From: Candidatus Zixiibacteriota bacterium
Lineage (GTDB): Bacteria; Zixibacteria; MSB-5A5; RBG-16-43-9
Assembly: GCA_022865345.1 (NCBI GenBank)
Contig: JALHSU010000026.1
Location: 1 to 34,296, forward strand
DNA: 34,296 nt
Reading direction: 5' to 3'
Shown here: positions 20,063 to 23,950 of the stretch, one piece after another
Layout of the letters: each line of letters begins with the position of its first letter
Position numbering within the stretch: position 1 is the first letter of the stretch
The notes under the pieces: model-generated
The model's input: only the letters and a program-made list of their open reading frames with translations
What the model was told of the DNA's origin: nothing
Databases searched by the model: none
Made by a program: the position numbers and the translations under genes

Positions 20063-20613
20063 ACGATAGGATCTATAACCCGGGAATTAAAGTCTTCTCC
20101 TCAGATAGAGAAGAAGGGATAATCATAAATCCTATTAAGGAAGAGCAGATCCATCACGGGATAATCTTGACCACGCTGGATAAGGTAGTGGGCTGGTCCA
20201 GAAAATCCTCAATGTGGCCCTTAGGATTTGGCCTGGCCTGTTGTGCAATCGAGATGATGTGCACTGCTGCTTCCCGGTACGATCTGGCTCGATTCGGGAT
20301 GGAGATTTTCAGATCCTCTCCCCGACAGGCTGATTTGATGATCGTGTCAGGCAGGGTCTGTCAGAAGATGGGTCCGGTTTTAAAACAGCTTTATAACCAG
20401 ATGCCGGATCCCAAGTGGGTTATCGCTATGGGAGCTTGTGCGTCCACCGGGGGAGTATTCAACAACTATGCGGTTATCAAAGGGGTGGATAAAATCGTGC
20501 CGGTGGATATGTATGTGCCTGGATGCCCTCCGCGTCCGGAACAACTCATCGACGGACTGATGAAGTTGCATGAGAAGGTCAGAAAAGAAGGGTTGCATTA
20601 CAGAAGAACGTAG
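20053..20613 (+). CDS. nuoB: NADH-quinone oxidoreductase subunit B
   Basis: This 186-residue protein carries the ligands of cluster N2: Cys63-Cys64 in [10 protein letters not shown], Cys129 in GACAST and Cys158 in VPGCPPRP. N2 hands electrons to quinone. Its ATG lies inside nuoA, after GGGGGGACTGAA, so translation is coupled. The stop codon TAG is part of a GTAG hairpin repeat that begins at 20610. The C-terminus (HYRRT) may therefore have been reset by repeat insertion. Confidence 0.97.
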
Positions 20614-20698
20614 TTGCCCAATTTATTGGGCAATTTTTGCTCGATGGATTGTGCAACTACAAATCAGAAAGGCTATGCTCGATGAATCGAGCAACTAC
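20610..20698. repeat. GTAG hairpins with terminator-like stem between nuoB and nuoC
   Basis: GTAG (20610-20613) is followed by TTGCCCAA-TTTA-TTGGGCAA and five T (20614-20638), which looks like an intrinsic terminator inside the operon. A degenerate minus copy (about 20636-20660) and a clean minus copy GCTCGAT/ATCGAGC ending CTAC (20676-20698) follow. Confidence 0.85.
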
Positions 20699-21539: not shown

Positions 21540-22730
21540 ATGCAGATAAAAAGGGAAAAACCAGATACCATGATTCTGAATATGGGTCCCCAGCATCCAG
21601 CTACCCATGGAGTGTTAAGGCTTGTTTTAGAGCTGGATGGCGAGACTGTGGTGAAGGCTACGCCGGATATCGGTTATCTTCATACCGGAATAGAAAAAAC
21701 TGCCGAATTCCGAACCTATTCCCAGAATATCACCCTCTGGGACCGGACCGACTACGTGGCTAACCTTTCGAATAATTTAGGTTACGTGTTAGCTGTGGAG
21801 AAGCTTTTGGATATTGAGGCACCTCCCAAGGCTCAATTTATAAGAGTTCTTTTGACTGAACTACAGAGGATTTCCTCTCATCTGGTCTGGGTCGGTTCTC
21901 ATGCTGCAGACATCGGCGCAATATCGATGCTCCTTTACGCCTTCAGGGAGCGCGAGATGCTCCAGGACATATTCGAAACCATATCCGGACAGAGGATGAT
22001 GACCTCTTTCATTCGGATCGGAGGTCTGGCAAAAGATTTACCAGCTTCAGGTGATTTCGAAAAAAGGGTCAGGGAGTTCATAAAAGTCTTCCCCTCCAAG
22101 ATTCAGGATTATGAGAACCTTTTGACCAAAAATAAACTCTGGCTGCAAAGGACAGTTGGGATAGGAACTATAACTTCGGAAGAAGCCATCAACTGTGGGC
22201 TTTCGGGTCCAATTATCCGGGCTTGCGGAGTGAAATGGGACTTGAGAAAATCCAATCCCTATTCCGGATACGAAAAGTTTGAATTCGATATCCCTACCGG
22301 GAAAAACGGGGACGTGTATGACCGGTATTTGGTCAGGGTTGAAGAGATGAGACAATCGTTAAGAATAGTCAAACAAGCTTTGGAAGGGATACCTGAAGGA
22401 GATTATACAGCCAGAATACCGGGGGTGGTTTATCCTCCAAAAGAGATAGTAAAGAAGGAGATGGAGGCATTGATCTATCATTTTAAGATTGCCCAGGAAG
22501 GGTTTACAGTTCCGCCTGGGGAAATCTACCATTCCATCGAATCGCCTAAAGGGGAGTTAGGATATTTTATTGTATCAGACGGCTCAAAAAAACCTTACCG
22601 GGTAAGGGTCAGGCCGCCTTCGTTTGTGAATTTAAGCGCTTTCAACAAATTAGTCGCAGGCAGACTGATAGCGGATGTGGTTGCGATTATAGGAAGCATA
22701 GATATTGTTTTAGGAGAGATTGACAGGTGA
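21540..22730 (+). CDS. nuoD: NADH-quinone oxidoreductase subunit D
   Basis: This 396-residue 49-kDa subunit is homologous to NiFe hydrogenase large subunits. Quinone-site features are present: GPQHPATHGVLRL (16-28), GYLHTGIEK (about 46) and the C-terminal DVVAIIGSIDIVLGEIDR. Length is normal for the stand-alone form. It sits with NuoB and NuoC at the quinone-reduction end. The transposase gene begins 72 bp after its stop codon. Confidence 0.97.
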   Translation: MQIKREKPDTMILNMGPQHPATHGVLRLVLELDGETVVKATPDIGYLHTGIEKTAEFRTYSQNITLWDRTDYVANLSNNLGYVLAVEKLLDIEAPPKAQFIRVLLTELQRISSHLVWVGSHAADIGAISMLLYAFREREMLQDIFETISGQRMMTSFIRIGGLAKDLPASGDFEKRVREFIKVFPSKIQDYENLLTKNKLWLQRTVGIGTITSEEAINCGLSGPIIRACGVKWDLRKSNPYSGYEKFEFDIPTGKNGDVYDRYLVRVEEMRQSLRIVKQALEGIPEGDYTARIPGVVYPPKEIVKKEMEALIYHFKIAQEGFTVPPGEIYHSIESPKGELGYFIVSDGSKKPYRVRVRPPSFVNLSAFNKLVAGRLIADVVAIIGSIDIVLGEIDR

Positions 22731-22802
22731 AGAAAGCTTGGAGCAGGTAGCAAGTAGCAAAAAAGAAAAATCTGGAAAGGTTTGAACAAAGGTCTCTGAA
22801 AA

Positions 22803-23396
22803 TTGAAACAGTATTTAGAAAAAGATGGGCGCAGTTCTTTCAGATTAAAGGACTACGATTATTCACAGGCGGGTGCATATTTTGTGACGATTTGCACGCA
22901 AAAAGGTAAATCAATTTTGGGAAAAGTAGTAGAGGAAGAAATGGTTTTAAATAAGTATGAACAAATTGTTGAACAATCCTGGAATGAATTATCGAGTCAT
23001 TTTTTGAATACGGAAATGGATTGGTTTGTTGTTATGCCCAATCATATTCACGGCATCATCGCCATAGATGACGAATGTAGGGGTGGGGTTTCCCCGCCCA
23101 TGGGCGAGTCCGCCTTTGGCGGATCGCCCCTACAAAAGCCTAGATTGGGGCAGATAGTCGCCTATTTTAAGTACCAAACGACTAAATTGATCAATGAGAG
23201 TCGCTCAACTCCTGGAATGAGGGTCTGGCAGAGAAATTATTATGAACATGTGATTCGGAATGAAAATAAGTTAAATAAGATCAGATATTACATCCAAACC
23301 AACCCTTTAAAATGGCATCTGGATAGAGAAAATCAACAAAGAGTCGGGGAAAATATGTTAGAAGATGAAATTTTTAATTCAAACTTGAAAAAATAG
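22803..23396 (+). mobile_element. REP-associated tyrosine transposase (RAYT/TnpA_REP)
   Basis: This 197-residue Y1 HUH transposase begins at TTG 22803. It has the family opening RLKDYDYSQAGAYFVTICTQ, the HUH pair His81/His83 in MPNHIHGI, and the catalytic region NYYEHVIRNE (Tyr146/Tyr147), then IRYYIQTNPLKW. Such single-copy domesticated transposases cut and move REP hairpins in single-stranded DNA. It lies between nuoD and nuoE in the direction of the operon and appears intact. Residues about 92-111 (CRGGVSPPMGES...GSPLQ) are encoded by a paired GTAG hairpin (23077-23133, 57 nt, 19 codons) that keeps the frame. The insert falls in a loop between the HUH strand and the helix LGQIVAYFKYQT, a place where family members vary. 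Confidence 0.92.
23077..23133 (+). repeat. Paired GTAG hairpin (BIME-like) inside the RAYT coding sequence
   Basis: The layout is GTAG (23077-23080), stem GGGTGGGG/CCCCGCCC with a TTT loop, AT, a second stem GGGCGA.../...TCGCCC containing TCCGCC/GGCGGA, then CTAC (23130-23133). Both strands thus start with GTAG. The same layout follows the gene at 23417-23464. Confidence 0.9.
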
Positions 23397-23416
23397 ATAA
23401 GCCAGGAAAAGTTAAT

Positions 23417-23464
23417 GTAGGGGCTGGGTTCCCCAGCCCATGGGCGAGGAGACCTCGCCCCTAC
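23417..23464 (+). repeat. Paired GTAG hairpin (BIME-like) just after the RAYT gene
   Basis: GTAG, stem GGGCTGGG/CCCAGCCC, AT, stem GGGCGAGG/CCTCGCCC, CTAC. It begins 20 bp after the RAYT stop and ends 15 bp before nuoE. Confidence 0.9.
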
Positions 23465-23479
23465 AATTGGATCAAAAAA

Positions 23480-23950
23480 ATGATCTCAAGGGAAACAGAA
23501 GAAAAAATTAGAAATCTAAAAGGAAAATATCCGAAGGTTAAAACCTGTGTCCTTCCAGCTTTTCATATCCTGTATCAGGAGGAAGGTTACCTCTCGCAGG
23601 AAGGGATACAGAAGGTGTCTGAGCTTTTAGGGGTTCCTCTTTTAGAGTTACATGAGGTTCTGTCATTTTACGTTTTCTTCCCCACCAGAAGGATCGGTAA
23701 ATACTGGATCAGGGTCTGCGATAACCTCTCCTGTTCCCTGATGGGAGCAGAAAGCATAATCAAGTATCTGGAGGAAAAGCTAAAAATCAGGGTTGGCCAA
23801 ACCACGCCAGACGGGCTTTTCACCCTGGGCACGGAGGAGTGTTTAGGCTCCTGCGGAACAGCACCAATGATGATGGTGAATGAGGAGTTTCACGAGAACC
23901 TGACCAGAGAGAAAATCGACAAGCTCATAGAAGAGCTTTCCAGAAAATAA
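23480..23950 (+). CDS. nuoE: NADH-quinone oxidoreductase subunit E
   Basis: This 156-residue thioredoxin-like [2Fe-2S] subunit has ligands Cys80 and Cys85 (VCDNLSC) and Cys121 and Cys125 (ECLGSC), the N1a cluster pattern. It pairs with NuoF in the NADH-oxidising module. No strong Shine-Dalgarno is seen because a hairpin repeat ends 15 bp before the ATG. NuoF follows after 3 bp. Confidence 0.96.
   Translation: MISRETEEKIRNLKGKYPKVKTCVLPAFHILYQEEGYLSQEGIQKVSELLGVPLLELHEVLSFYVFFPTRRIGKYWIRVCDNLSCSLMGAESIIKYLEEKLKIRVGQTTPDGLFTLGTEECLGSCGTAPMMMVNEEFHENLTREKIDKLIEELSRK

Follow-up and report, generated by a model that had tools for sequence, protein, structure and literature searches.

Introduction

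According to passages of Quentin et al. (2018; PMC6006769), REPs carried in frame between the HUH motif and the tyrosine are a unique feature of TnpA_REP subclass 2.4, which is RAYT group 4 of Bertels. In the same passages the insert counts as a peripheral extension that probably affects activity little, and the median HUH-Y distance of subclass 2.4 is given as 88 aa, compared with 58–67 in most subclasses. A 2013 paper on GTAG and CGTC repeats (PMC3733652) described in-frame GTAG REPs in unrelated genes and cites the Rickettsia RPE. Except in E. coli and for a few group 3 enzymes, the way in which a RAYT picks its REP family out of many is for the most part not understood.

Here we describe a RAYT gene that carries a REP pair in its own reading frame. 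It lies in a stretch of 34,296 nucleotides (the window) from a 2.86-Mb draft genome of 275 contigs (G000). The in-gene REP is a phenomenon already known since 2018; what the literature searched did not give is its link with helix alphaC of the protein, which was not found in these papers, including the passages of Quentin et al. (2018).

Results

A RAYT gene between nuoD and nuoE

The features of the locus are as follows.

21540–22730, + strand: nuoD, upstream neighbour of the RAYT gene (NCBIfam TIGR01962, E 2e-170)
22765–23472, + strand: segment of the window that is missing between nuoD and nuoE in the sister species (ends approximate; comparison with L093)
22803–23396, + strand: RAYT / TnpA_REP gene, 197 aa, TTG start (ORF; PF01797; REP_Tyr_transpos; fold match 4er8)
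23043–23051, + strand: HUH motif H81-I82-H83, within PNHIH (histidines invariant in a 41-row alignment)
23077–23133, + strand: in-gene REP pair, encoding residues 92–111 (sequence; folding energy versus synonymous recodings; disordered in the model)
23109–23123, + strand: palindrome TCCGCCTTTGGCGGA, lying inside the second hairpin's loop (sequence)
23145–23204, + strand: helix alphaC, residues 115–134 (LGQIVAYFKYQTTKLIN...), putative REP-stem recognition helix (covaries with the in-gene stem; includes the counterpart of E. coli RayT K82)
23289–23291, + strand: Y163, candidate catalytic tyrosine (nearly invariant across the 41 aligned rows; placement within the Y1 transposase fold)
23417–23464, + strand: second REP pair, of the same stem class as the in-gene pair, between the RAYT stop and nuoE (sequence)
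23480–23950, + strand: nuoE, downstream neighbour of the RAYT gene (NCBIfam TIGR01958, E 2e-47)

The original prediction had placed a transposase with intact HUH and Tyr motifs between nuoD and nuoE. The ORF and the TIGR01962 and TIGR01958 matches of its neighbours confirm the location, and H81, H83 and Y163 are conserved in the alignment. In the sister species G001 (locus L093), whose nuoD is 97% identical, the nuoD-nuoE gap is 52 bp long, empty and without a RAYT, and a RAYT was found between these two genes in none of the 29 relatives examined. Because the sister species has an empty site, the RAYT was most likely gained recently in the window lineage, through either transposition or recombination. 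With the sister species and these 29 relatives for comparison, interval 22731–23479 offers a clean empty site for a RAYT gene.

No recognisable REP lies between nuoD and the RAYT gene, the only flanking REP pair being on the 3' side. Set against the end layout of IS200/IS605 elements, the insertion is about 0.7 kb that the sister species lacks; a REP pair lies on its right side, and none between nuoD and the RAYT. A REP-like inverted pair is also found between nuoB and nuoC (20610–20698); it is shared with the sister species (L093) and is therefore older than the RAYT insertion.

The protein matches Y1_Tnp (PF01797), as do all 41 aligned RAYT members, and NCBIfam REP_Tyr_transpos (E 5e-17), the latter with 62 bits, under the 80-bit cut-off of the model, and in a match split in two by the loop. 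Among solved structures the best fold match is 4er8 (E 1e-6), the complex of a RAYT with a REP hairpin. W142-Q143-R144 is conserved across the 41 rows, 80 residues lie between H83 and Y163, and the HUH-to-W distance varies from 49 to 114 among relatives. In the AlphaFold2 model (mean pLDDT 83), residues 89–114 form the loop that joins strand 81–88 to helix 115–134. Residues 93–101 and 103–107, inside the REP-coded stretch, have pLDDT values below 50, compared with about 97 in the middle of alphaC; the REP-coded stretch is therefore a disordered loop as modelled.

The in-gene REP pair

After the HUH motif, a GTAG hairpin (23077–23099), an AT spacer and an inverse hairpin ending in CTAC (23102–23133) form a 57-nt unit, GTAGGGGTGGGGTTTCCCCGCCC-AT-GGGCGAGTCCGCCTTTGGCGGATCGCCCCTAC, which in detail reads GTAGGGGTGGGG-TTT-CCCCGCCC-AT-GGGCGAG-TCCGCCTTTGGCGGA-TCGCCCCTAC. 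In frame it encodes CRGGVSPPMGESAFGGSPLQ. The unit, its limits and its reading frame had been predicted correctly, but not its extent of 19 codons: it starts at the second base of a codon and is therefore spread over 20. Its folding energy is -41.6, and 0 of 2000 synonymous recodings folded as low (mean -24.8, sd 4.1). This unit is certainly not due to chance; it is a REP inside a gene. Compared with the consensus of its stem class (class I), its 5' arm departs (GGGT, a wobble pair), and its 3' arm is interrupted by another palindrome. Palindromes CCCGCCAAAGGCGGG, similar to the one at 23109–23123, are nested in other REPs of G000.

The second unit, also foreseen, starts 20 nt past the RAYT stop, has the same layout and is 89% identical to the in-gene pair over the first 35 nt. 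Genome-wide, units of the form GTAGGGG-N10-40-CCCCTAC number 96 in G000, versus 6 for the reversed control, and have many different stems.

In-gene hairpins of related RAYTs

We examined 100 RAYT-like ORFs, from 80 loci of other genomes, from the G000 paralogues and from the RAYTs of G000 relatives. An in-frame GTAG hairpin was present between HUH and W in 80 of the 90 long-loop RAYTs, a frequency biased by the collection of relatives by similarity to the window RAYT, and in 0 of the 10 short-loop ones. A search of viral contigs for further RAYT relatives gave two hits only. The original prediction had proposed aligning relatives to see whether the REP-coded residues were absent: most long-loop RAYTs have a hairpin at the same place, and an empty version exists in L191. 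The stems differ among RAYTs, yet they recur across phyla as classes, each with its peptide:

CGGTTC: RGGSRTAPT
GGGTTT: VGAGFKPAPT
GACCCG: VGATRRVAPT
CAATTC: VGAIHELPL
CACGGC: RGTARRAPT
GRGG-T: RGGVSPP, GGETPPL

A conserved protein domain unrelated to REPs was considered as an identity for the loop and rejected, as the stem varies from one RAYT to another and is in most cases a perfect GTAG palindrome. In L025 and L035 the loop contains tandem peptide repeats (ARGAET, ADKGAET), as though a portion of a REP had been amplified in frame.

A RAYT could drop its own REP near or into its own gene without any function being served, the survivors being copies that fell in a tolerant disordered loop and in an open phase; the match with alphaC reported below would then be a by-product of action in cis. 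The predicted disorder of the loop agrees with this, and so does the phase of the REP feet in the genes: 51 and 25 cases fall in the two phases where TAG stays out of frame, and 0 in the third. Such an event also has its empty site: in genome G087, paralogue L191, which is frame-shifted, is without the entire REP block that L187 has, and the unit of L006 in G000 is flanked by TCATCT and ATGTC, which together make up the empty junction in L191. REPs within unrelated genes have moreover been published (PMC3733652). However, a single site occupied near-universally across phyla, and persisting with a matched alphaC, suggests more than occasional hits, and we consider insertion without function possible but not the favoured explanation.

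Covariation of the in-gene stem with helix alphaC

A stem could be read in 76 RAYTs, and for these we set the similarity of the five bases that follow GGGC against the identity of each protein part. Stem-core similarity rose with alphaC identity (r 0.44; partial r 0.44 with the remainder of the protein taken into account; reached in 0 of 2000 permutations) and was unrelated to identity in that remainder (r 0.03, partial -0.04). In 9-residue sliding windows the signal peaked in alphaC (z 17.5), was at z 1–2 in the adjacent HUH region and faded within about 10 residues past the helix; these permutation z-scores are inflated by sequence kinship, against which the absence of signal in the N and C parts serves as the principal control. 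Columns 85, 88, 89, 92 and 93 scored highest, and they are spaced like residues on a single face of a helix. With the set thinned to 32 non-redundant alphaC types, alphaC kept p 0.001, and the N and C parts gave no signal. Host lineage or overall phylogeny as the origin of the link is not supported, the N and C parts being without signal.

Two further candidates were discarded. One was another covarying patch, where helix alphaB ends (z about 8), which was lost after thinning (p 0.43). The alphaC segment could also have been partly REP-coded itself; in all rows but one, 18 nt or more separate the end of the last REP arm from the F of FK, so that the main scored columns (85 onward) lie outside the REP.

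The alphaC sequence was also predictive. In leave-one-out tests, the nearest alphaC gave 4.26 of the 5 stem nucleotides, versus 2.38 for the rest of the protein and 2.16 for random choice, and with 20 held-out RAYTs gathered afterwards it gave 4.05 of 5 versus 1.78 (p 4e-5). Column 92, just after the conserved FK (an I/F-K pair), aligns by eye and without gaps with K82 of E. coli RayT (W-R-E-I-K-K82), a residue that contacts a REP stem base in the co-crystal (PMC8266576). From these comparisons, the in-gene stem and alphaC are very likely linked in subclass 2.4 RAYTs, and this link likely reflects recognition.

Within the window lineage, C-terminal parts are alike, and alphaC and REP differ. 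The C-parts of L002 and L003 are 89% identical, versus 38% in alphaC; for L002 and L157 the values are 93% and 33%, and for the window RAYT and L002 80% and 33%. The reverse holds for L013, which belongs to another lineage: its alphaC is 76% identical to that of the window RAYT, and its C-part 67%. A tree of the N and C parts, weakly resolved and with many unresolved forks, groups RAYTs of different REP classes from one host lineage. It appears from these mosaics that alphaC and REP were exchanged together between RAYT genes as a cassette.

Exchanged middle segments are also what would be expected if recombination simply moved alphaC and REP together because they are neighbours, in which case their correlation would be uninformative on recognition. 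Proximity accounts poorly for a signal that is strongest on alternating alphaC columns, drops at the end of the helix, coincides with the stem-contacting residue of E. coli RayT and is weak on the equally near upstream HUH side (although the HUH part is highly conserved). Dispersed genomic REPs, moreover, match as well (see below). We therefore regard linkage alone as an unlikely cause of the correlation.

Dispersed and flanking REPs of the same class

For four stem classes, we counted dispersed copies other than the in-gene one in 51 genomes; for class I more than two copies were needed, because the in-gene pair itself gives two. Genomes with dispersed repeats were distributed as follows.

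Class A: 7 of 10 on-class genomes; 1 of 41 off-class
Class D: 2 of 4 on-class genomes; 3 of 47 off-class
Class F: 3 of 5 on-class genomes; 6 of 46 off-class
Class I: 4 of 5 on-class genomes; 2 of 46 off-class

Dispersed repeats of a class were thus associated with genomes whose RAYT has that stem class, with a pooled odds ratio of 29 over the four classes. Class I, that of the window RAYT, has 45 exact monomers in G000, four of them within the window, and class F, the in-gene stem of L002, occurs 26 times, the copy in L002 included. A REP of the same stem was present within 700 nt of the gene for 21 of 69 RAYTs, versus 0.9% for the stems of other RAYTs. In some genomes dispersed REPs of a class were found without a matching RAYT, as for class D in G000. 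The dispersed double-foot classes CAATTC, CGTATT and GTTCAAAATTTTGAAC of G000 likewise had no RAYT of matching alphaC type in the assembly; peptide IGVQNFEPP of L141, in genome G010, fits class GTTCAAAATTTTGAAC.

The prediction that the element had inserted a substrate into its own gene agrees with the in-gene REP matching its own alphaC type, with the dispersal of its monomer class (45 copies in G000) and with the existence of empty and filled paralogues. The in-gene unit is, however, no isolated accident: nearly all relatives of the subfamily carry a GTAG hairpin there, with stems of their own.

REPs are very abundant in G000, and any abundant REP might enter the loop passively, irrespective of the specificity of the RAYT. 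However, G000 has several stem classes, and in each of L001, L002 and L003 the in-gene class is the one that goes with the alphaC type of that RAYT; furthermore, alphaC predicts the stem across phyla in held-out data. Entry by abundance is thus highly improbable. The hairpin might otherwise work in the RAYT mRNA, as an autoregulatory or stability element, with no role as a DNA substrate required: it is very stable under RNA parameters, and REPs have been proposed to act in RNA (PMC3733652). The match of the stem to alphaC and to dispersed REP DNA points instead to DNA recognition, and we hold a purely RNA role to be improbable.

Discussion

We consider it probable, from comparison of the sequences, that a subclass 2.4 RAYT gene bears its own cognate REP beside alphaC, the two forming a linked specificity cassette. 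The window protein would be an HUH transposase of subclass 2.4 (RAYT group 4), and the part of its gene that codes for the disordered linker from HUH to alphaC would hold a copy of the REP recognised by the same enzyme. AlphaC would read the REP stem, a contact that we infer for subclass 2.4 from the E. coli structure, and the REP and alphaC codons would for that reason act as a linked cassette, swapped between RAYT genes in such a way that enzyme and site stay matched. The sequences support the in-frame REP, its position, its near-universality, the covariation with alphaC, the class-matched REPs, the mosaic genes and the recent gain. As to how this arose, either the enzyme or recombination may have placed the REP in the gene, the linker presumably accommodates it without loss of activity, and the cassettes were presumably exchanged by recombination.

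The more specific proposal, that the in-gene REP is the enzyme's own recognition site in an exchangeable cassette, and that sequences across phyla yield a code in which four or five alphaC residues correspond to about five stem bases, is one towards which we lean with some reserve. If true, each subclass 2.4 gene documents one protein-DNA pair, and many matched pairs of enzyme and site can be collected from public genomes; exchanging helices becomes a way to test the recognition code, and REP families become traceable in their spread and co-inheritance. These genes are also a case in which a repeat is regularly translated as part of the enzyme presumed to act on it.

Among known systems, TnpA of the IS200/IS605 family (IS608, ISDra2) shares with the window RAYT the HUH-Y1 fold and, probably, the recognition of hairpins, but the hairpins of IS200/IS605 are at the element ends, outside the gene. 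The intragenic GTAG and CGTC REPs and the Rickettsia RPE (PMC3733652) are similarly palindromic repeats carried in frame in genes that are not broken; they lie in unrelated host genes, whereas the window repeat is in the gene of its presumed user, with a class match. E. coli RayT (subclass 2.2, 4er8) is the closest solved fold, and its alphaC equivalent contacts the REP stem via K82; it differs by a short loop without REP, a bulged REP stem and a C-terminal tail that reads part of GTAG. The closest likeness examined feature by feature was to subclass 2.4: the window RAYT has the HUH and single-Y core with a W-Q motif, an insertion of variable length between the HUH strand and alphaC (residues 89–114), a frame-kept REP between HUH and Y (23077–23133), a canonical long or double-foot GTAG REP within 1 kb of the gene (23417–23464) and a long HUH-Y distance (80 residues, compared with the median of 88 aa in the passages of Quentin et al., 2018). 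Because it has every feature of subclass 2.4 tested, the window RAYT fits this subclass by sequence.
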